Shown piece after piece: positions 3,072 through 11,723 of a stretch of DNA of 64,000 nucleotides. The translations under genes and the position numbers were made by a program. The notes under the pieces were generated by a model, which was given only the letters and a program-made list of their open reading frames with translations, had not been told where the DNA came from and ran no database searches. The stretch covers positions 124,001-188,000 of the forward strand of contig JAJYRN010000004.1 in the NCBI GenBank assembly GCA_021794095.1. Direction: 5' to 3'. This DNA is from Acidobacteriota bacterium (GTDB lineage: Bacteria; Acidobacteriota; Holophagae; Holophagales; Holophagaceae). The first letter of the stretch is position 1. Every line of letters starts with the position of its first letter.

Positions 3072-3319
3072 CCCTTCTCCCCAGGCCCTGGCACGGCATT
3101 CTGGAACCTATCGCGAGGTTGTCGCATCTGATTCATGTCTGGCTCCACCACCTTTGGACGAGGAGAGTGGGAGTGGCTTGGACTCCAACCTCATGGGCCC
3201 GTTGTGATGGCTTCGAGATCCGGCGTCCCTGCGGCGGCAGCGTTCCGAGGTGGGTCCGGTGAGGCGCTGGCATAGCACATTCGAAGGCCATCATTTGAAG
3301 AATGCATAAGGGGATTCTG

Positions 3320-5794
3320 ATGGGTGACTTCTCCAACACCGTCGGACCGAAGGGAAATGACTCTGGAAAAGGGGGCACCGGCAGGGCGGATGGGCCCGGG
3401 GCTGAACCAGACCCGCTCACGCCACCCGATGGTCTGGGTGAAGCCGAAGTCAAGCAGCGGCTCGCCCAATTCGGTTTCAACGAGCTTCCCGAGAAGACGC
3501 GCAACCCAGTGGCCGAATTCCTCTCCCATTTCTGGGGGCCCATCCCGTGGATGATCGAGGCCGCGGTGATCCTGTCCGCAGTGCTGCGTCATTGGGCGGA
3601 CTTCTCGATCATCTTCCTGCTGCTCATGGCGAACGCCGTCATCGGTTTCTGGGAGGAATTCCAGGCCGGGAATGCCATCGCCGCGCTCAAGGCCAATCTC
3701 GCGCTCAAGGCCCGAGTCAGGCGCGATGGGCAGTGGCGAGAAGTCCTTTCCCGTGAGCTGGTGCCGGGGGATCTCATCCGGCTTCGCCTGGGGGACATCG
3801 TGCCCGCCGACGCGAGGCTGCTGGAGGGTGATCCGGTCGAGGTGGACCAATCCGCATTGACGGGAGAATCGCTTCCTGTCGCCCGTGGCCCTGGGGAGTC
3901 CGTCTATTCAGGCTCGATCCTGAAGCGAGGTGACATTGATGCGGTGGTCACCGCCACAGGGAAGGCCACCTATTTCGGCAAGACCGCGCAGCTGGTCGAG
4001 TCGGCCCATACCATCAGCCATTTCCAAAAGGCCGTGCTGAAGATCGGGGACTACCTGATCGTGATCGCAGTGGCCCTGGTCATCGTGATCATCGCGGTGG
4101 CCCTGTTCCGGGGTGACAGGTTCGCCACCACGCTCCAGTTTGCGTTGGTACTGACAATCGCAGCCATCCCGGTGGCCATGCCCACGGTGCTTTCGGTCAC
4201 CATGGCCGTCGGCGCGCGGCTCCTCGCCCAGAAGAAGGCCATTGTCAGCCGATTGGTCGCCATCGAGGAACTGGCAGGCATGGATGTGCTCTGCACCGAC
4301 AAGACGGGCACGCTGACCCAGAACAAGCTGGCGCTTGGTATCCCCTTCTGCATGAAGGACATTGCTCCAGGCGATGTGGTCCTTGCCGCGGCGCTGGCCT
4401 CCCACGCTGGATCGGGTGACGCCATTGATCAGGCGATCCTGGCCGGCTTGCAGAGCTCTGAGGTCATCCACGACTTCGAGGTTCTCCATTTCCAGCCCTT
4501 CGATCCCGTCGGCAAGCGCACAGAGACCTCTCTGCGGGGGCCCGATGGCGCGACCTTCAAGGTCAGCAAGGGGGCACCCCAGGTCATTCTCGCGCTGACG
4601 TCCGATCCGAGCGGAATCCAGGCACACGTGGAAAAGGTCATTGAGGACTTTGCATCGAGAGGGTTCCGTTCCCTGGGCGTCGCACGCACGGACGCCCAGG
4701 ATCAGTGGCAATTCCTGGGTGTACTGCCCCTCTCTGATCCACCGAGGGAGGATTCCGCCACCACCATCGCCAGCGCCATGGCGATGGGGGTACGGGTGAA
4801 GATGGTCACGGGTGATCAGGTCGCCATCGCCAAGGAAGTTGCAAAACAGGTTGGCCTGGGAACGAACATTCTGGATGCAGGCCTGTTCGCCGAGACCGCT
4901 CATCACCTCAGCGGGCAGCTGGATGCGGCCATTGAAAGCGCGGACGGCTTCGCCCAAGTCTTCCCCGAACACAAATACCACATTGTCGAGGTCTTCCAGA
5001 AGCACGGGCACATCACGGGCATGACCGGCGATGGTGTCAACGATGCGCCTGCGCTCAAGAAGGCCGATGCGGGCATCGCGGTCTCCGGCGCCACCGACGC
5101 AGCGCGTGCCGCGGCAGACATCGTGCTGCTCACACCGGGGCTCTCCGTCATCATTGATGCCATCAAAGAGAGCCGGAAAATCTTCCAGAGGATGAACAGT
5201 TACGCCATCTACCGTATCGCTGAGACGATCCGGGTGCTGCTGTTCATGACGCTGTCCATCCTGATTTTCAATTTCTATCCGGTGACGGCCGTGATGATCG
5301 TCCTGTTGGCGCTGCTGAATGACGGCGCCATCCTGACCATCGCCTATGACCGTGTGAACTATGCCAACAAGCCAGAGGCCTGGAACATGCCCCACGTGCT
5401 GGGCATCTCATCGGTCCTCGGTCTCGCAGGGGTTGTCGCATCCTTCGGCTTGTTCTATCTGGGTGAACGGGTGTTCCACCTGGACCGCAGCTCCATTCAG
5501 ACCCTGATCTATCTGAAACTTTCCGTGGCGGGACAGCTCACCATTTTCGTCACCCGGACCCGCGGCCACTTCTGGTCCACGCGCCCTGCAACGGTGCTGC
5601 TGGCCGCTGTCGCCGCCAATCAGCTCCTGGCCACCCTCATCGCGGTCTTTGGCCTGGGGCTTATGACTCCGATCGGATGGGGCTGGGCGCTGGCGGTCTG
5701 GGCTTACGCCCTGGCATGGCTCTTCATCAACGATTTCGTGAAGCTGGGAGCCTACCGAATCATGGATAGCAACCAACCTGTACTCGCCCACTGA
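3320..5794 (+). CDS. Plasma-membrane proton-pumping P-type ATPase (P3A)
   Basis: Predicted H+-exporting P-type ATPase using ATP to drive protons across the inner membrane. From ATG 3320 (824 residues) it has the actuator motif TGES (181-184), the phosphorylated Asp in CTDKTGTLT (D327), the nucleotide-domain KGAP motif, and the hinge GMTGDGVNDAPAL, with membrane helices on both sides and a C-terminal helix bundle. The length fits fungal/plant-type H+-ATPases and their bacterial relatives; the autoinhibitory tail is absent. An in-frame ATG at 3302 is possible, but AAGGGGA at 3308-3314 sits correctly only for ATG 3320. It heads a block with a kinase-like protein 15 bp downstream and an antiporter, which suggests pH or ion homeostasis. 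Codon use looks less extreme in GC3 than that of the flanking peptidase gene. Confidence 0.9.
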   Translation: MGDFSNTVGPKGNDSGKGGTGRADGPGAEPDPLTPPDGLGEAEVKQRLAQFGFNELPEKTRNPVAEFLSHFWGPIPWMIEAAVILSAVLRHWADFSIIFLLLMANAVIGFWEEFQAGNAIAALKANLALKARVRRDGQWREVLSRELVPGDLIRLRLGDIVPADARLLEGDPVEVDQSALTGESLPVARGPGESVYSGSILKRGDIDAVVTATGKATYFGKTAQLVESAHTISHFQKAVLKIGDYLIVIAVALVIVIIAVALFRGDRFATTLQFALVLTIAAIPVAMPTVLSVTMAVGARLLAQKKAIVSRLVAIEELAGMDVLCTDKTGTLTQNKLALGIPFCMKDIAPGDVVLAAALASHAGSGDAIDQAILAGLQSSEVIHDFEVLHFQPFDPVGKRTETSLRGPDGATFKVSKGAPQVILALTSDPSGIQAHVEKVIEDFASRGFRSLGVARTDAQDQWQFLGVLPLSDPPREDSATTIASAMAMGVRVKMVTGDQVAIAKEVAKQVGLGTNILDAGLFAETAHHLSGQLDAAIESADGFAQVFPEHKYHIVEVFQKHGHITGMTGDGVNDAPALKKADAGIAVSGATDAARAAADIVLLTPGLSVIIDAIKESRKIFQRMNSYAIYRIAETIRVLLFMTLSILIFNFYPVTAVMIVLLALLNDGAILTIAYDRVNYANKPEAWNMPHVLGISSVLGLAGVVASFGLFYLGERVFHLDRSSIQTLIYLKLSVAGQLTIFVTRTRGHFWSTRPATVLLAAVAANQLLATLIAVFGLGLMTPIGWGWALAVWAYALAWLFINDFVKLGAYRIMDSNQPVLAH

Positions 5795-5809
5795 AACGAA
5801 AGGGACAGC

Positions 5810-6559
5810 ATGCTCAGCGACCGATCTCTTGATGCCTTTTCGGGGAAGACCTTTCTTGACCGATGCCTCACGTACATGTCCACCCAGCTTGAAACGCACA
5901 ACCATCAGGGCGAGGTACTGGTGTCATCGCCCTCCGGCCCCGCCGTCACTATCTCCTATCAAGCAGGATCAGGCGCCCATGAAATCGCCATCCGGCTTGC
6001 GGAGCTTCTGGAAGCCAAGGCCCATCCGGGATCGGCACCATGGACGGTTTTTGATCGCCAACTGGTCGAGAAAGTTCTTGAGGATCATCACATGTCCCAG
6101 GCGCTGGCCAAGTTCATTCCCGAGGATCGCCAATCCTCGCTACGGCAGGCCATGGATACGATGTTCGGCGTGATTCCCTCCGCCTGGGATATGGTCCCTA
6201 AAATCGCCGAGACAGTGTTGAAATTGGCGGATGCCGGGCATGTCGTCCTGGTCGGGCGTGGCGCGAACTTCATCACCGCCTCAAGGCCGAACGTGTTCCA
6301 TGTCCGACTGATGGGATCGCTACCGAGGAGAATCCAGAGGATCCAGGACCGCGAGCAGCTCACGATCGAGATGGCCACAAGGTCGGTCACCGAAGAGGAC
6401 CGGGCGCGAGGGCGCTATGTGAAGGCCCACTTCGGAGAGGGCATCGAGGATGAACTCCTCTACCACATCGTCATCAACACGGATCGCGTTCCGCTCCCCG
6501 ATGCAGCGGGGCTGATCTCCGACGGGGCACGAAGGTGTTTCCCTGGCCTCTTCCCCTGA
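5810..6559 (+). CDS. Cytidylate kinase-like family protein
   Basis: 249 residues. After about 45 extra N-terminal residues comes a P-loop-like beginning (ISYQAGSGAHEIAIRLAELL), then FDRQLVEKVL, matching the cytidylate-kinase-like family (Pfam Cytidylate_kinase2), followed by LVGRGAN and an arginine-rich lid-like region. The Gly-rich loop lacks the usual GK[ST], as in many members of this family, so nucleotide kinase activity is uncertain. ATG 5810 follows AAAGGGA (5799-5805); a second in-frame ATG at 5876 would remove a weakly conserved N terminus. It is only 15 bp after the ATPase and almost certainly cotranscribed. A regulatory or energy-sensing role for the pump is inference from position only. 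Confidence 0.75.
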   Translation: MLSDRSLDAFSGKTFLDRCLTYMSTQLETHNHQGEVLVSSPSGPAVTISYQAGSGAHEIAIRLAELLEAKAHPGSAPWTVFDRQLVEKVLEDHHMSQALAKFIPEDRQSSLRQAMDTMFGVIPSAWDMVPKIAETVLKLADAGHVVLVGRGANFITASRPNVFHVRLMGSLPRRIQRIQDREQLTIEMATRSVTEEDRARGRYVKAHFGEGIEDELLYHIVINTDRVPLPDAAGLISDGARRCFPGLFP

Positions 6560-6688
6560 ATCAGTCCGTGGTCATCGAGGAAAGGAGATGCTGACTACCA
6601 CTCCAATTGGTTCAATCCCGATACCAATGCGTGCGGAACCGAAGCGGGTCGTTCACACTGATGGCGGAAACCACCTGCTGAGATCCCC

Positions 6689-7918
6689 ATGGTCAACGGC
6701 CACCTCTCCACCCCGCTGCTCGTCGCAGGATGCGGCCTCTTGTTCTTCATCGGCCATGCCTTTGAACAAGTGTTCCGCCGGTTCCGCATCCCGGATGTGC
6801 TCCTCCTGATTCTTCTGGGCCTGCTGCTCGGTCCCGTTTTCGGCTGGCTACGGCCGTCGGGCAACTCGCCCATCGAGCACCTGTTCGGACACATCGCCCT
6901 GATCATCATCCTCTTCCACGGAGGCCTTGACCTCAGCCTGCGTGATCTTCGGGCGCATGCCTTTTCCGCAGGCCGGCTGTCGCTTGGATTGCTGGGCGCC
7001 TCGACCCTCCTGATCGCCCTGCTTGCGCACCTCGGATTCGGGCGCCCCTGGCCTGCCTCCTGGCTGCTTGGGCTGGTCCTCTCTCCTGTGGCGGCGACGG
7101 TGGCGGTGCCCTTGCTGGAACACCTGCCCTTCTCCAGGCAAATGCGAAGCATCATCACCCTGGAATCGGCGATCGGCGATGTGACGGCCATCGTGGCGGT
7201 GCTGAGCCTCACCCAGGCCTTGACCCAACACGATGCCGGCCTGGGTCTATCCTTGGGCCGCTTCGTCGCGGCGATTGGAGGCGCGGCCATTCTGGGCGCA
7301 TCCGCCGGACTGCTTGGGGCCTTCATCCTTCGCAGGCTCCAGGCCTTCGCCAAGATGGGTTTTGCGTCGGAGGCCATGCTTTTGGTGGTGGCGGGCTTCA
7401 CAGAGTGGATGGGCTTCAGCGGGGCCATCGCGGCGCTGGCCTTTGGAATCGTCTTCCGGAACCTGGATGAGATTTCGCCCCGCCTGCTGCCTGCGCGTTT
7501 CCAGACGCCCGAGGGCCTTTCCCAGAATGAATCGGCCCTGCTCCACGAGGCCGTATTTATCTTGAAAGTGACCTTCTTCTGCTACCTGGGCACACTGCTC
7601 GGTATCCGGAATCCCCGAGTCCTTTGGGCCGGGGCTTTGGTGGCGATTCTGCTCCTGATTCTGAGGACGGTCTGGTTCCGGTGGGTCGCCCGTGGGAGCG
7701 GAAACGAGCGTGATCAATGGATGGCAGGTGTGCTCTGCGGCCGGGGCCTCAGCAGCGCCATTCTTGCTTCAATACCGCTGGAATTGGGAATCCCTGGTGG
7801 AGACTGGATCCGGGATGTGGCCTATGTCGTCATCCTCGCATCCAACATCCTGACGGGTCTCGGCGTGGTCGGGGTGATGCGCCGGTATCCACGCACAGAG
7901 CCCGAGGGGGCCGCCTGA
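6689..7918 (+). CDS. Cation/proton antiporter (CPA1, NhaP-like)
   Basis: 409 residues, almost entirely hydrophobic with about 12 predicted membrane helices. The N-terminal pattern (FRRFRIPDVLLLILLGLLLG), the middle GGLDLSL and SAIGDVTAIV stretches and the late GRGLSSAIL segment match Na+(K+)/H+ antiporters of the NhaP/CPA1 type. The Asp in GDVTA is in the region carrying the ion-binding acidic residues. It lies 129 bp after the kinase-like gene, probably in one transcription unit with the proton ATPase. The pump builds a proton gradient that the antiporter could use to expel Na+ or K+. The ribosome site before ATG 6689 is weak. Ion specificity cannot be read from sequence. Confidence 0.85.
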   Translation: MVNGHLSTPLLVAGCGLLFFIGHAFEQVFRRFRIPDVLLLILLGLLLGPVFGWLRPSGNSPIEHLFGHIALIIILFHGGLDLSLRDLRAHAFSAGRLSLGLLGASTLLIALLAHLGFGRPWPASWLLGLVLSPVAATVAVPLLEHLPFSRQMRSIITLESAIGDVTAIVAVLSLTQALTQHDAGLGLSLGRFVAAIGGAAILGASAGLLGAFILRRLQAFAKMGFASEAMLLVVAGFTEWMGFSGAIAALAFGIVFRNLDEISPRLLPARFQTPEGLSQNESALLHEAVFILKVTFFCYLGTLLGIRNPRVLWAGALVAILLLILRTVWFRWVARGSGNERDQWMAGVLCGRGLSSAILASIPLELGIPGGDWIRDVAYVVILASNILTGLGVVGVMRRYPRTEPEGAA

Positions 7919-8062
7919 TGGTGAATGGAGGCCTCCGTTTGGTTCAGGAGGTCGGTGGCGGGAAGGCGGCTTGCCAGGTGAATCCAGCGGCCTGAGGCGG
8001 AAGGAGGGCTCAGGTGCAGCCTCCCTTCGGCCAGGCAGGAAGGTTGCCTAGAGGGTCCAACC

Positions 8063-8099
8063 TTGACTCAAAATTAATTTCGATACAAACTATTTGTAT
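8063..8099 (+). promoter_or_regulatory. MarR promoter with inverted-repeat operator over the start
   Basis: TTGACT (8063-8068) is a good -35 hexamer. ATACAAA (8083-8089) and TTTGTAT (8093-8099) form a perfect 7-bp inverted repeat with a 3-bp centre, spanning the -10 zone and touching the ATG at 8098. This is the expected layout for an autoregulating MarR protein. The -10 is poor (TACAAA at 15-bp spacing, or AACTAT at 19). The start lies 35 bp from the -35, so a leaderless mRNA is plausible. Confidence 0.6.
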
Positions 8100-8589
8100 G
8101 CAAATCAACGAGACCCAGTCTCAGGAAAAACACCGCCACGCGGAGGAGGTGATGCAGAGCCTCCGGCGGGTGGTCAAAGCCCTGCATGAATACTCCACCT
8201 CCGTGGAAAAGCAGTTCGGCCTGACGGGTCCCCAGCTCTGGGCCCTGTGGGAGTTGAACCGGGCCGGTCATTTATCCCTGAAGGCCCTCTCAGCCCGGAT
8301 GCACTTGGATCCCAGCACCGTCACCGGGGTGGTGGACCGCCTCCAGAAACGCCGCCTCCTGGTGCGGGCCACGGATCCCAAGGATCGTCGCCGGGTGGTG
8401 CTTTCCCTCACCGCCGAGGGGATCCACCTGCTCAAGGAGGCGCCCCACCCGGCCCAGGGTCAGCTCCTCTACGCCCTGCACGGAATGGACCTGGAAGAGG
8501 TGGAGCAGCTGAACCAGACGCTCAAGCACCTGGCTTCCGTCATGGAGGTCGGCTCCGCCGAGGCCCGTTTCTTCTTCGCGGAGGGCTAG
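8098..8589 (+). CDS. MarR-family transcriptional regulator
   Basis: 163 residues from ATG 8098. The winged-helix core is clear: TGPQLWALWEL, then a recognition helix LDPSTVTGVVDRL, followed by the wing with DPKDRRRVVLSLT, the hallmark of MarR proteins. An alternative ATG at 8152 has a strong GGAGGAGG just upstream and would give 145 residues. The operator location and the similar start of the second MarR gene (35746) favour 8098, but both starts may be used. The stop is 1 bp before the HAD phosphatase start, so it likely controls itself and the osmolyte genes behind it. The ligand is unknown. Confidence 0.88.
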   Translation: MQINETQSQEKHRHAEEVMQSLRRVVKALHEYSTSVEKQFGLTGPQLWALWELNRAGHLSLKALSARMHLDPSTVTGVVDRLQKRRLLVRATDPKDRRRVVLSLTAEGIHLLKEAPHPAQGQLLYALHGMDLEEVEQLNQTLKHLASVMEVGSAEARFFFAEG

Positions 8590-8590
8590 G

Positions 8591-9361
8591 ATGGCCGGAT
8601 TCCATCTCGTCACCGACCTGGACGGAACCTGGCTTCCCGCGCCCGGACAGCGAGGCCAGCTTCGGGATCTGGAGAACGCCCTGCTCGCCCGGCCCGATGT
8701 GGTGCTCACCTTCGCCACGGGCCGCACGTTCACGTCGGCCCTTGAGGCCATGGATCGCTGGAGCCTGCGCCCCCCACACCACCTGATCACCGATGTGGGC
8801 ACGGCCATCTTCCATCGGACCCCAGAAGGCGTCTGGGACGAGGATCAAACCTGGGCCAGCCGCGTGACGGCCGCCTGGGATCACCTCGCAGCGGAGCGCC
8901 TCCTGAAGGCGGGGCTCCCCGACTCGGTCTGTCCTCAGCCCGGGGTGGTCCCCATCCGTCGCCTCGCCCTGCAGGCGCTGATTGGACGGGGCGACGCCGC
9001 GACGGGGCGGGAACTGGAGCGCGCCTGCACAGCCACCGGCCTATCCGCCGACATCCTGGCCTCGCACAACCTGTATTTCGATGTCCTGCCATCCGGCATA
9101 CACAAGGGCTCGGCCATGACCTTCCTCCAGGCTTCACTGGAACTGCCCCGCCCCGTCGTGGGATGCGGCGATTCGGCCAACGATCTGGGCCTCCTGGAGG
9201 CGTCGGACTACCCCGTCGTCATGCTCGGTGGGCTGGGGGACCAGGAAGCACCGGCCGAACTGATCCGGAGGGCTCACCGGACGGACGTTCCCGGTCCCCG
9301 AGGCATCCACCGGGCGCTCGTCGCCTTGGGTTTACTTGAGGAGGGCCCCCATGACCATTGA
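8591..9361 (+). CDS. HAD-IIB sugar-phosphate phosphatase
   Basis: 256 residues of the HAD superfamily, Cof/sucrose-phosphate-phosphatase type. Motif I is TDLDGT (nucleophile D9, acid/base D11), motif II lies in TFATGR, and motif IV is GCGDSANDLGLLE; the cap domain lies between II and IV. GGAGGG precedes ATG 8591. It overlaps the start of the GT20 synthase by 11 bp, the classic layout of a phosphatase that finishes the product of the adjoining synthase. It probably removes phosphate from glucosylglycerol-phosphate or trehalose-6-phosphate. Closest-looking families are sucrose-6-phosphate phosphatase and mannosyl-3-phosphoglycerate phosphatase, so the substrate is inferred from context. Confidence 0.82.
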   Translation: MAGFHLVTDLDGTWLPAPGQRGQLRDLENALLARPDVVLTFATGRTFTSALEAMDRWSLRPPHHLITDVGTAIFHRTPEGVWDEDQTWASRVTAAWDHLAAERLLKAGLPDSVCPQPGVVPIRRLALQALIGRGDAATGRELERACTATGLSADILASHNLYFDVLPSGIHKGSAMTFLQASLELPRPVVGCGDSANDLGLLEASDYPVVMLGGLGDQEAPAELIRRAHRTDVPGPRGIHRALVALGLLEEGPHDH

Positions 9362-10814
9362 CCTGGTTGCAGCCGAAAAGCAAGTGGCGGATCTCATCAT
9401 CGCTTCCCACCGTGGGCCCTTCGTCCAGCATTCTGAGGATGGGTGGCGCCGGCGCGTGAATGGCGTCTTCGGGGCCATGGAGCCCGTCATGCGAGTCACG
9501 GGGGGAACCTGGGTCTGTTGGGGGCTCCGGGAGGACGAAGAGCCCCTTTCCGAACGCCACCGGGCCGTGTTCGTAGATGACGACGAGAAGTTCCGGGTGC
9601 ATGAAGTGTTGCTGACGAAATCGGAGGCAAAGGAATTCTACGAGGGCTTCACCACGGAATCCCTTTGGCCGATCCTCTTCTGTTTCCCCAGCCGGCTCCA
9701 GTTCATGCCGGGCCTGTGGGATACCTACCGCATGGTGAACGAGCGCTTTGCGCAGGCCATCGCCCGCCTCGCGGCACCGAGAGCCACGGTCTGGGTCCAG
9801 GATTTTCACCTCATGCTGCTCCCCGCGATGTTGAGGAAATTGCGCCCCGACCTCAAGCTGGGCTTCTTCCTCCATACGGCCTTCCCGCCACCGGATGTGT
9901 TTGGCATCCTCCCCTGGCGAGAGGCCCTGCTCGACGGAGTGCTGGGCTGCGACCTGGTGGGCTTCCACATTCCGTTGTACGCCACCAATTTCGCCCGGAG
10001 CTGCGGCCGGTTCCTGGGGGCGAGGCCTCACTGGAAGCGGAGCAACCTCGAAAGCCACGCCTTGTCCCCAACCCTCGTCTGCGACTCCCTGGCTTACGGG
10101 AGTCGAACCGTACAACTCCTTGCACTGGGCATTGGAGCCAGCCGGGAAGATATCGAACACCTGGCCTTGGATGAGGCCACCCAGTCCTATGCCGCGGACC
10201 TGAAGGCACGCATGGGGGTCGAGCATCTGCTCCTTTCCGCCGAACGCCTGGACTATGTGAAGGGGCCGGTGGAACGGGTCAAATCCATGGAAGTGCTCTT
10301 CGACCGCCACCCGGAATGGATCGGACGGGTCTCCCTGCTTCAAGTCGCCGTACCCAGCCGGGAGGGCGTGCCCGAATTCGAGCGCCTCAAGGACCAGATG
10401 CACCAGGCCGTCGGGGAATTGAACAGTCGCCTGGGCTCACCGACCTGGCAGCCCATTGTCAACCTGAGCAAGACCCTGCCCCTTCAGGAACTGGTCGGGC
10501 TCTATCTGGCGGCCGATGTGTGCCTGGTGACCCCCCTCCGCGACGGCATGAACCTTGTGGCCAAGGAATACGTCCTCTGCCGGAACGATGGTTTGGTGGT
10601 GCTGTCGGAATTCGCGGGCGCCGCCTTCGATCTCCCAGGGGCCATCCTGGTGAATCCATTCTCCCCAGAGCATGTGGCCGAAGGCATCCACGCGGCCCTC
10701 GAGATGAAACCCAAGGAACGTAAACGCCGGTTCAGGGCCATGCACCGCGTCAGTCGAAGCCGGGATCTGACCTGGTGGAGGAAGGCGTTCATGGAACAGA
10801 TGGCCGCGATTTAG
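9351..10814 (+). CDS. GT20 synthase: glucosylglycerol-phosphate or trehalose-6-phosphate synthase
   Basis: 487 residues from ATG 9351, preceded by GAGGAGGG; a TTG at 9336 would add five residues. Family GT20 signatures are present: [29 protein letters not shown], and [13 protein letters not shown] near the C terminus, where the nucleotide-sugar is bound. YVKGP and MNLVAKEY, with GGTWVCWG near the N terminus, resemble cyanobacterial glucosylglycerol-phosphate synthase more than OtsA, which usually has YIKG and MNLVSYEF. The neighbouring HAD protein would be the phosphatase. Either way the product is a compatible solute, and the next gene is a mechanosensitive channel. ADP- versus UDP/GDP-sugar use cannot be told by eye. 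Confidence 0.82.
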
Positions 10815-10870
10815 AAGGTTCAGCCCTTGGCGGGTGCTTGCGCCCAACCAGAGGCTTGCAGGGGGCGGAG

Positions 10871-11302
10871 ATGAGAATTCGCAGGATCCTGGACGAGTTC
10901 GAGGCTTTCGCACTTCGGGGCAATGTTCTGGACTTCGTCATGGCCGTCGTCATCGGCGGCGCCATCGGGCGGATCATCACCGCCTGCGTGGATGGGTTGG
11001 TCATGCCCACCTTCGCCTACTGGCTGCGCGAGACCCAGTGGGAGAAGTGGACCTACTGGCAGTGGCGGATCGGCCCCGTGATTTCGGCGCTTCTGGATTT
11101 CTTCGCCAAGGCAGCGGTCATGTACCTCTTCATCATCAAGGGCGTCGGGTCGCTCACGAAGCGGGCCAGCAGCCAGAAGTCCAGCGCGCCTTTCCGCACC
11201 TGCCCCTTCTGCCGGGAGTCCATCCATCCAGAGGCCGTCCGTTGCAAGTACTGCGGAAGCGATGTTCCCACAGCCCAGACCGCGAGCCCTACCGCAGGAT
11301 GA
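10871..11302 (+). CDS. mscL: MscL-type mechanosensitive channel with C-terminal zinc ribbon
   Basis: 143 residues. The N-terminal part (DEFEAFALRGNVLDFVMAVVIGGAIGRI) is the conserved amphipathic helix plus TM1 of MscL, and TM2 is around residues 72-95 (ISALLDFFAKAAVMYLFIIK). The usual cytoplasmic helix is replaced by a zinc ribbon, CPFCRESIHPEAVRCKYCGS, with four Cys in CxxC...CxxC spacing. The channel would release solutes on hypo-osmotic shock, fitting its place behind the osmolyte synthase. I chose ATG 10871, directly after GGCGGAG, because the domain starts there; an upstream in-frame extension has no domain features. Confidence 0.85.
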   Translation: MRIRRILDEFEAFALRGNVLDFVMAVVIGGAIGRIITACVDGLVMPTFAYWLRETQWEKWTYWQWRIGPVISALLDFFAKAAVMYLFIIKGVGSLTKRASSQKSSAPFRTCPFCRESIHPEAVRCKYCGSDVPTAQTASPTAG

Positions 11303-11547
11303 GTGGATCCAGCCAAGGACATCCGAAGGTCCAAAAACACCTCAACCCCTCCGGCCTCGCCACCACGATGAGGTATGTCGAGGACTCCACGGCGGGCCTG
11401 CGCGAAGCCCAGGCCAAGGTGGCAGACGCCATGGGTCTCGGGGTATCCTTGGGGTCTGCCAGGATCTCCGCAACGTCTCCAAAAACAGGTTCCGGTGGTA
11501 AGAACGGTGGTGAGGCCAAAAAGTTGAACCCCCGAAAAAGCAAGTAA
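11299..11547 (+). pseudogene. 3' remnant of a tyrosine recombinase/integrase
   Basis: An 82-codon open piece overlapping the MscL stop. Its first half reads HLNPSGLATTMRYVEDS, which lines up with the C-terminal catalytic box of phage-type integrases (LGHSSxxTTxxY, including the nucleophilic Tyr), followed by a helix LREAQAKVADAMG as in integrase tails. The GH of the box is replaced by NP and the whole N-terminal part is missing, so it cannot be active. It stops 20 bp before tRNA-Arg, a preferred integration target. Interpretation as an integrase remnant rests on this one motif. Confidence 0.5.
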
Positions 11548-11567
11548 CCCAAGCAAGTGCAACACTA

Positions 11568-11644
11568 GTACCCGTAGCTCAGTTGGATAGAGCGTTGGCC
11601 TCCGAAGCCAAAGGTCGCTGGTTCGATTCCAGTCGGGTGCACCA
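11568..11644 (+). tRNA. tRNA-Arg (anticodon CCG)
   Basis: A complete cloverleaf: acceptor GTACCCG pairs with CGGGTGC (one T-G pair), D-arm GCTC/GAGC, anticodon stem TTGGC/GCCAA with loop CTCCGAA giving anticodon CCG at 11601-11603 (codon CGG), variable loop AGGTC, and T-arm GCTGG/CCAGT with loop TTCGATT. The discriminator is A and CCA is encoded at 11642-11644. A terminator follows 7 bp later. Confidence 0.97.
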
Positions 11645-11650
11645 GTCAAG

Positions 11651-11680
11651 CCCCTGAAACCCAACGGTTTCAGGGGTTTT
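11651..11680 (+). terminator. Rho-independent terminator of tRNA-Arg
   Basis: CCCCTGAAACC (11651-11661) and GGTTTCAGGGG (11666-11676) form a perfect 11-bp stem with loop CAAC, followed by TTTT. It lies between the tRNA and the convergent chemosensory operon. Confidence 0.88.
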
Positions 11681-11723
11681 CATGGTATTCGGGACATGGT
11701 GCCCGGGCGGGGGACGGGGACTC

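Follow-up and report, generated by a model that had tools for sequence, protein, structure and literature searches.

The 64,000-nucleotide stretch analysed here (the window; contig JAJYRN010000004.1, positions 124,001 to 188,000) comes from an Acidobacteriota bacterium of the family Holophagaceae whose genome assembly spans 2.99 Mb and is 99% complete. On its + strand lies a run of four genes, encoding a MarR-family regulator, a HAD-IIB phosphatase, a glucosyltransferase of family 20 (GT20) and an MscL-like channel (Table 1). The first-pass annotation had described the GT20 and phosphatase genes as overlapping, and their coordinates, strand and overlap were confirmed: the two open reading frames (ORFs) share 11 bases, 9351-9361. 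For the MarR gene the likely start is ATG 8098, as opposed to GTG 8014 of the longest ORF. One base separates the MarR and HAD genes and 56 bases separate GT20 from MscL, spacings which, together with the overlap, suggest that the four genes likely form an operon. The HAD and GT20 genes are real and are kept by purifying constraint. In comparisons of the window with the related loci L029 and L030, dN is 0.07 and 0.13 against dS of 0.71 and 0.99 for GT20, and 0.26 and 0.27 against 1.30 and 1.00 for the HAD gene.

Table 1. Features of the MarR-HAD-GT20-MscL locus, in coordinates of the window.
Feature	Position	Strand	Details
Possible -35 box of the MarR promoter, TTGACT	8063..8068	+	weak
Candidate MarR operator, palindrome ATACAAA-CTA-TTTGTAT over the MarR start codon	8083..8099	.	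7-3-7 form
MarR-family regulator	8098..8589	+	163 aa; PF12802 55.5 bits, PF01047 52.2 bits, both above cut-offs
HAD-IIB phosphatase, sucrose-phosphatase (S6PP) type	8591..9361	+	256 aa; PF05116 102 bits (cut-off 20.3)
GT20 glucosyltransferase, third lineage	9351..10814	+	487 aa, ATG 9351; PF00982 (Glyco_transf_20) 407 bits (cut-off 32.5)
MscL-like mechanosensitive channel, C-terminal tail with two CxxC pairs	10871..11302	+	PF01741 62.6 bits

The GT20 protein had earlier been tentatively read as glucosylglycerol-phosphate synthase (GgpS) rather than OtsA because of two motifs, YVKGP and MNLVAKEY. Both are indeed present, at residues 302-306 and 400-407. As marks of GgpS they had to be rejected, since MNLVAKEY is carried by 13 of the 32 OtsA-labelled rows but by no GgpS row (of three) and no fused HAD-GT20 row (of four), and so points, if anywhere, away from GgpS. 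YVKGP was found in five of the six rows of the protein's own lineage (the sixth, L032, is gapped there) and in none of 39 others; with NGV and TTE it forms the signature of this lineage. Nor do the curated models assign it to GgpS or OtsA. The protein scores 381 bits against the GgpS equivalog TIGR02398, below the cut-off of 569 that the positive controls from Dinoroseobacter (658) and Falsirhodobacter (597) pass, and 463 bits against PRK14501, where the cut-off is 634. The TIGR02398 score was discarded as a sign of GgpS, because other Acidobacteriota GT20 rows reach 342-372 bits (L027, 372) and a true OtsAB fusion, that of genome G432, reaches 389. Structure predictions from four-sequence alignments were poor for both enzymes (pLDDT 59 for GT20 and 43 for HAD).

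A maximum-likelihood tree of 41 rows has three groups joined at a single node, namely the lineage of the window's GT20 (5 rows), GgpS with the fused actinomycete proteins (7 rows, support 100/98) and the OtsA-labelled rows (29 rows, 100/98). The same three groups were recovered in a second tree of 42 rows, for which L031, L015 and L035 were removed and four rows added, the copy from G426 and three Holophagaceae OtsAB fusions. Approximately unbiased (AU) tests on the second tree, with both groups picked after the first tree, rejected a forced clade with the three GgpS alone (p 0.0029) and one with the three Holophagaceae OtsAB (p 0.000124). Measured by path, the row closest to the lineage from outside differs between the trees: Dinoroseobacter GgpS in the first, an Acidobacteriota OtsAB in the second. 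Both trees are unrooted, and whether GgpS (with the fused proteins) or OtsA is the sister group depends on the root. As GgpS references, three sequences from alphaproteobacteria were used, with cyanobacterial and pseudomonad GgpS left out; two are annotated ggpS and the third, from Tistrella, was named from its 53% identity to the first. Many of the 29 rows labelled OtsA are unannotated Acidobacteriota proteins assigned by exclusion, with a phosphatase motif sought for part of them only. Several rows are unusual in letter make-up and a long branch leads to the fused rows. The phylogeny against GgpS and OtsA proposed earlier as a check thus placed the protein in neither group, and hence not among the OtsA sequences. 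As judged from its sequence, the GT20 is a third lineage that fits neither known bacterial type.

OtsA substrate residues given in sections of PMC1769515 and PMC6879718 were projected onto the GT20 alignment. All 11 residues listed in the former are retained, in both the glucose-6-phosphate site (R21, W57, Y97, W106, R337) and the donor, UDP-glucose, site (G38, D151, H175, R299, D398, E406). At two positions that distinguish the families the lineage is OtsA-like. The Arg337 position is R in all 29 OtsA-labelled rows, N, N and A in the three GgpS and E in all four fused proteins, while the His153 position is H or Q in the 29 OtsA-labelled rows and N in all seven GgpS and fused rows. Eight columns separate OtsA from GgpS and fused proteins taken together, and here the lineage is Ggp-like at four, OtsA-like at two and neither at two. 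At the 12 columns separating OtsA from the three GgpS alone, the GT20 is OtsA-like at six, GgpS-like at four and neither at two. By these alignments the active site is mixed, combining OtsA-type glucose-6-phosphate residues with a GgpS-like N-terminal loop.

The best solved relative of the HAD phosphatase is the sucrose-phosphate phosphatase (SPP) of Synechocystis (E 5e-17), and the alignment places Asp9, Thr43, Gly44 and Lys172 at the S6PP-type phosphate site, matching the phosphate-binding residues Asp9, Thr41, Gly42 and Lys163 given for Synechocystis SPP in an excerpt of PMC5113954. The SPP equivalog TIGR01485 is missed (71.7 bits, cut-off 183.65); as yardsticks, a Holophagaceae HAD beside a true sucrose-phosphate synthase (SPS) scores 52.8, also a miss, and a GgpP 82.5. 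In a 37-row tree the HAD and its Geothrix orthologues group at 100/99 with two Holophagaceae HADs, L087 and L088. L087 (G134), 46% identical to our protein, directly precedes a true SPS (TIGR02472 603 bits, cut-off 576), and L088 adjoins an MscS channel gene. Synechocystis SPP joins this group next, at 93/89, short of the mark for strong support. Elsewhere in the tree, three alphaproteobacterial GgpP and the HADs of five fused actinomycete proteins stand together as a group of their own (99/96). Two Acidobacteriota HADs, one of them an S6PP-GH100 invertase fusion of G152, join that group at 98/94, so it is not purely GgpP. Since the HAD clusters beside an SPS-linked HAD and outside GgpP, the phosphatase looks to have been recruited from the sucrose pathway branch.

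The genome holds one GT20 and one S6PP protein, the latter being the HAD of the module. No OtsB family match was found in it, nor an SPS, the best TIGR02472 match being 40 bits. Two GlgC genes score above cut-off, which makes ADP-glucose plausible as a donor. Three PF00128 (alpha-amylase-family) matches are clustered on another contig, and trehalose may also be made by a further route, for example TreY-TreZ or TreS.

A search of 77 Holophagaceae genomes found the arrangement MarR-HAD-GT20, with GT20 at least 57% identical, in six, namely the present one, G006, G010, G020, G424 (same genus) and G426 (another genus). The nearest GT20 orthologues among named genomes are those of L029 (88% identity), L030 (Geothrix sp. 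SG200, 81%), L031 (79%) and L032 (71%), from records labelled Geothrix, Holophagaceae and 'Acidobacteria bacterium', which makes the source of the window a Geothrix or a close relative of that genus. An MscL gene lies downstream of GT20 in four copies (the window, L029, L030 and L032); none was seen after GT20 in the G426 copy, and the G424 contig stops about 250 bases past GT20. The genes flanking the module vary between the window, L029 and L030, which indicates a conserved unit of MarR, HAD and GT20, to which MscL is added in four copies. Across 396 genomes of the phylum, GT20 matches at E of at most 1e-95 were limited to four: the present genome, another member of its genus and two whose GT20 is 39% identical (L027, L028). 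The latter two have phosphatase-like sequence downstream, judged by eye, and that of L027 matches the OtsB part of the G432 OtsAB fusion. A scan of two short peptides against 84,980 species genomes, which reaches close relatives only, returned four relatives. No paper linking 'glucosylglycerol' with 'Geothrix' was found in the open-licence literature.

The MarR protein has orthologues at 53-83% identity in the five other module copies, and relatives (48-83% identical, 31 places listed) occur in 24 of the 77 Holophagaceae genomes, the present one included. The surroundings (about 1.5 kb) of thirty MarR loci, two pairs of which overlap, were searched for 11 further reference proteins, and six of the loci carry HAD-GT20. 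In G432 (L104, 1849-6384) a MarR relative is divergent from the OtsAB fusion (PRK14501 884, T6PP 107, both above cut-offs), which is followed by a GH15 gene identified by BLAST, and a second MarR copy in G006 precedes a GH15 gene with a trehalase-like N-terminal domain. In G152 (L138, 1682-5234) the genes for a MarR relative, a GT4 protein (TIGR02472 191, below cut-off) and the S6PP-GH100 invertase-like fusion follow one another in this order on one strand. The relative in G430 precedes a HAD-like ORF without a Pfam match at 1e-5. Wider neighbourhoods were examined for 14 regions; in three of them (L029, L146, L147) Pfam confirmed a ClC chloride channel gene next to MarR, and in L105 an Na+/H+ exchanger close to the relative. 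By association alone, these neighbours suggest a regulator that responds to osmotic or ionic stress. MarR-type repressors EctR1 and CosR control ectoine and betaine operons, according to an extract of PMC7876524; there, too, a MarR regulator stands beside osmolyte genes, a likeness of theme only. A pair of GNAT-like and carbon-nitrogen-hydrolase-like genes also recurs near MarR relatives in L139, where it was identified by Pfam, and in L144, L148 and L149, where it was recognized by look-alike N-terminal sequence.

The palindrome over the MarR start codon, two arms of seven bases around a spacer of three (7-3-7), is the sole match of its kind in the window. In L029 it is again a perfect 7-3-7 in which both arms have been altered together (ATGCAAACTATTTGCAT); the L030 version has two unpaired positions and in L031 the outermost pair is unmatched. 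Folded as DNA it gives a z of -2.78. The exact palindrome occurs in 10 of 151 loci, all copies of the window region or of L031/G424, and sites near other MarR genes resemble it by eye. A search for a 6-4-6 form with at most one mismatch gave no matches because the actual spacer is three. L029 and L030 likewise have a TTGAC box upstream of the MarR start; a consensus promoter scan of 7850-11700 returned no sites, which leaves the assignment of TTGACT as a -35 box weak. The earlier suggestion that MarR controls the enzyme pair stands as regards gene adjacency, and repression would be the probable mode of control.

Other genes near the module deserve mention. Upstream on the same strand (3302-7918) lie genes for a proton P-type ATPase, a cytidylate-kinase-like protein and an Na+/H+ exchanger, the last at 6689-7918, upstream of MarR. 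The ATPase is of the plasma-membrane proton type (TIGR01647 1049 bits, cut-off 615.5). Taken with the operon, these genes suggest a neighbourhood concerned with ion and osmotic stress. The MscL-like protein passes the Pfam MscL cut-off (27.4 bits) and misses TIGR00220 (52.7 against 71 bits); its zinc-ribbon-like tail with two CxxC pairs is shared by L029, L030 and L032. A tRNA-Arg (ccg) gene, a possible integration site, lies shortly downstream of the operon at 11568-11644.

From gene order, conservation, protein families, trees, residues and the lack of an OtsB match in the genome we infer, tentatively and with somewhat less than even confidence, that the module makes a glucoside compatible solute in two steps under MarR control, the solute most likely being trehalose or a comparable hexose glucoside. 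The product itself is not readable from the sequence, and glucosylglycerol is not established. At low osmolarity MarR would occupy the palindrome over its own start codon and repress the operon; salt or another signal would free it, so that GT20 and HAD, probably co-transcribed, would be produced together. The GT20 would move glucose from a nucleotide-glucose, plausibly ADP-glucose, onto a phosphorylated acceptor, most likely a hexose 6-phosphate and in the first place glucose 6-phosphate, giving trehalose via an OtsA-like step. The sucrose-phosphatase-type HAD would then strip the phosphate in place of OtsB, and MscL may serve as an emergency valve upon hypo-osmotic shock. We favour trehalose because the GT20 shares all 11 published residues with OtsA and is OtsA-like at Arg337 and His153, no OtsB match turned up in the genome, the HAD falls in an SPS-linked clade and MarR relatives stand, at one locus each, beside the OtsAB fusion of G432, the trehalase-like GH15 of G006 and the GT4 and S6PP-invertase genes of G152.

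Several observations weigh against trehalose as the product. Unlike the GT20 of an OtsA-OtsB system, the protein misses the cut-off of the OtsA model TIGR02400 (437.6 bits, cut-off 564.85), on which Dinoroseobacter GgpS scores 412, L027 527 (below cut-off, with an OtsB-like ORF adjoining) and the G432 OtsAB fusion 570.5 (a pass), and its lineage is set apart from the OtsA group at 100/98 in both trees. Three positions depart from OtsA in the lineage: His20, which is GgpS-like (Asn in 28 of 29 OtsA-labelled rows), Asn37 (N in all seven GgpS and fused rows, G or S in all 29 OtsA) and Thr102 (Asn in all 29 OtsA, Lys in all seven GgpS and fused). The retained residues are themselves not decisive, since the red-alga PhTPS1 has the same R, Y, W and R positions of the glucose-6-phosphate site and yet makes (iso)floridoside phosphate, as stated in a section of PMC6642608; to judge from this product, its acceptor would be a glycerol phosphate. 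Concerning the phosphatase, part of PMC5113954 reports SPP to be specific for sucrose 6-phosphate and part of PMC4081830 reports that trehalose-6-phosphate phosphatase does not accept sucrose 6-phosphate, so that substrate recognition is not the same in the two classes. Geothrix SG200 (G006) carries, besides the module, a separate OtsA-group GT20, which suggests a different product of the module there, and 20 of the 30 MarR loci show none of the 11 reference proteins.

A bolder alternative, which we regard as rather doubtful, is that the GT20, with its mixed OtsA/GgpS active site, represents a third functional class of osmolyte synthase making a glucoside that is neither trehalose nor glucosylglycerol, with a recruited sucrose phosphatase and a MarR subfamily placed on varied sugar-osmolyte modules. 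The Holophagaceae MarR subfamily would then attach to whichever module a genome possesses, of the trehalose type, the sucrose type or the present one. A rival reading, in our view unlikely, has the HAD keep its ancestral substrate class and the GT20 make sucrose 6-phosphate, with fructose 6-phosphate as acceptor, or a different glucosyl-polyol or sugar phosphate. It would fit the acceptor site of MtrOtsA, which can bind fructose 6-phosphate without using it according to a portion of PMC6879718. The distinct signatures of the third GT20 lineage and the lack of an SPS above cut-off in the genome also speak for it, as does the pair in G134, in which a phosphatase of the same clade is likewise the first gene and an SPS the second. 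The synthase of that pair is a GT4, and a GT20 takes its place here. We know of no GT20 enzyme that produces sucrose, which counts against this reading.

Glucosylglycerol synthesis, in which the GT20 would take glycerol 3-phosphate and ADP-glucose and the HAD would act as GgpP, we consider unlikely, slightly more so than the preceding reading. The closest parallel is the gpsA-HAD-ggpS operon of Dinoroseobacter shibae (pDSHI02) and Falsirhodobacter algicola, where a separate HAD gene also directly precedes the GT20 gene and the synthase, 38% and 35% identical to ours over the BLAST-aligned part, has the loop residues H20 and N37 in common with it. The Ggp-like state at four of the eight columns, the two GlgC genes and the nearest outside row of the first tree can be added in its favour. 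Against it, TIGR02398 is missed and a true OtsAB fusion outscores our protein on it, the GT20 (P0001) is more often OtsA-like than GgpS-like against GgpS alone, the clade with GgpS alone is rejected (p 0.003), the nearest outside row of the second tree is an OtsAB, and the present operon has MscL downstream and no glycerol-3-phosphate dehydrogenase gene preceding it, unlike both alphaproteobacterial operons. With the protein outside GgpS in the trees, Arg337 retained and a phosphatase of another branch than GgpP, the choice of GgpS over OtsA in the first-pass annotation is not supported. What is supported is an osmolyte-type synthase-phosphatase pair, encoded by overlapping, separate genes behind a MarR gene; glucosylglycerol as the product is unproven. 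Separate genes had been contrasted with a pseudomonad fusion of both activities, which is in print with the phosphatase N-terminal (PMC10873239, in part). The same part of that source has nearly all glucosylglycerol-making cyanobacteria with separate synthase and phosphatase genes, and with Dinoroseobacter and Falsirhodobacter likewise, the separation seen here is genuine and not unusual.

Fused proteins on actinomycete plasmids (Kitasatospora, Streptomyces, Embleya) have the same two domains in the same order as here, and the fused HAD of Kitasatospora is the best-identity plasmid match of our HAD (34.8%). Unlike the proteins of the window, they are fused, carry E at the Arg337 position and have a HAD in the GgpP branch. 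The two scanned, L024 and L025, score 324 and 292 bits on TIGR02398, below cut-off. Such plasmids are L025, L024, L046, L047 and L086, with Glu at the Arg337 position in the four aligned. That the module is no osmolyte pathway at all, the GT20 being inactive or making a signal or cell-envelope precursor, gains something from the fact that the presumed osmotic role rests on neighbour genes and is nevertheless very improbable, given the low dN, the full set of donor residues, the adjoining MscL and Na+/H+ exchanger genes and the MarR relatives beside OtsAB, ClC and antiporter genes.

Whether a GT20 enzyme leads to trehalose, glucosylglycerol or a related solute depends on its acceptor specificity, which is not reliably legible from sequence. 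A lineage that mixes the marker sets of both bacterial types and is joined to a phosphatase from the branch of a third pathway offers a natural test of the residues that set the acceptor. For Geothrix, our results add a candidate osmolyte operon and its candidate regulator.

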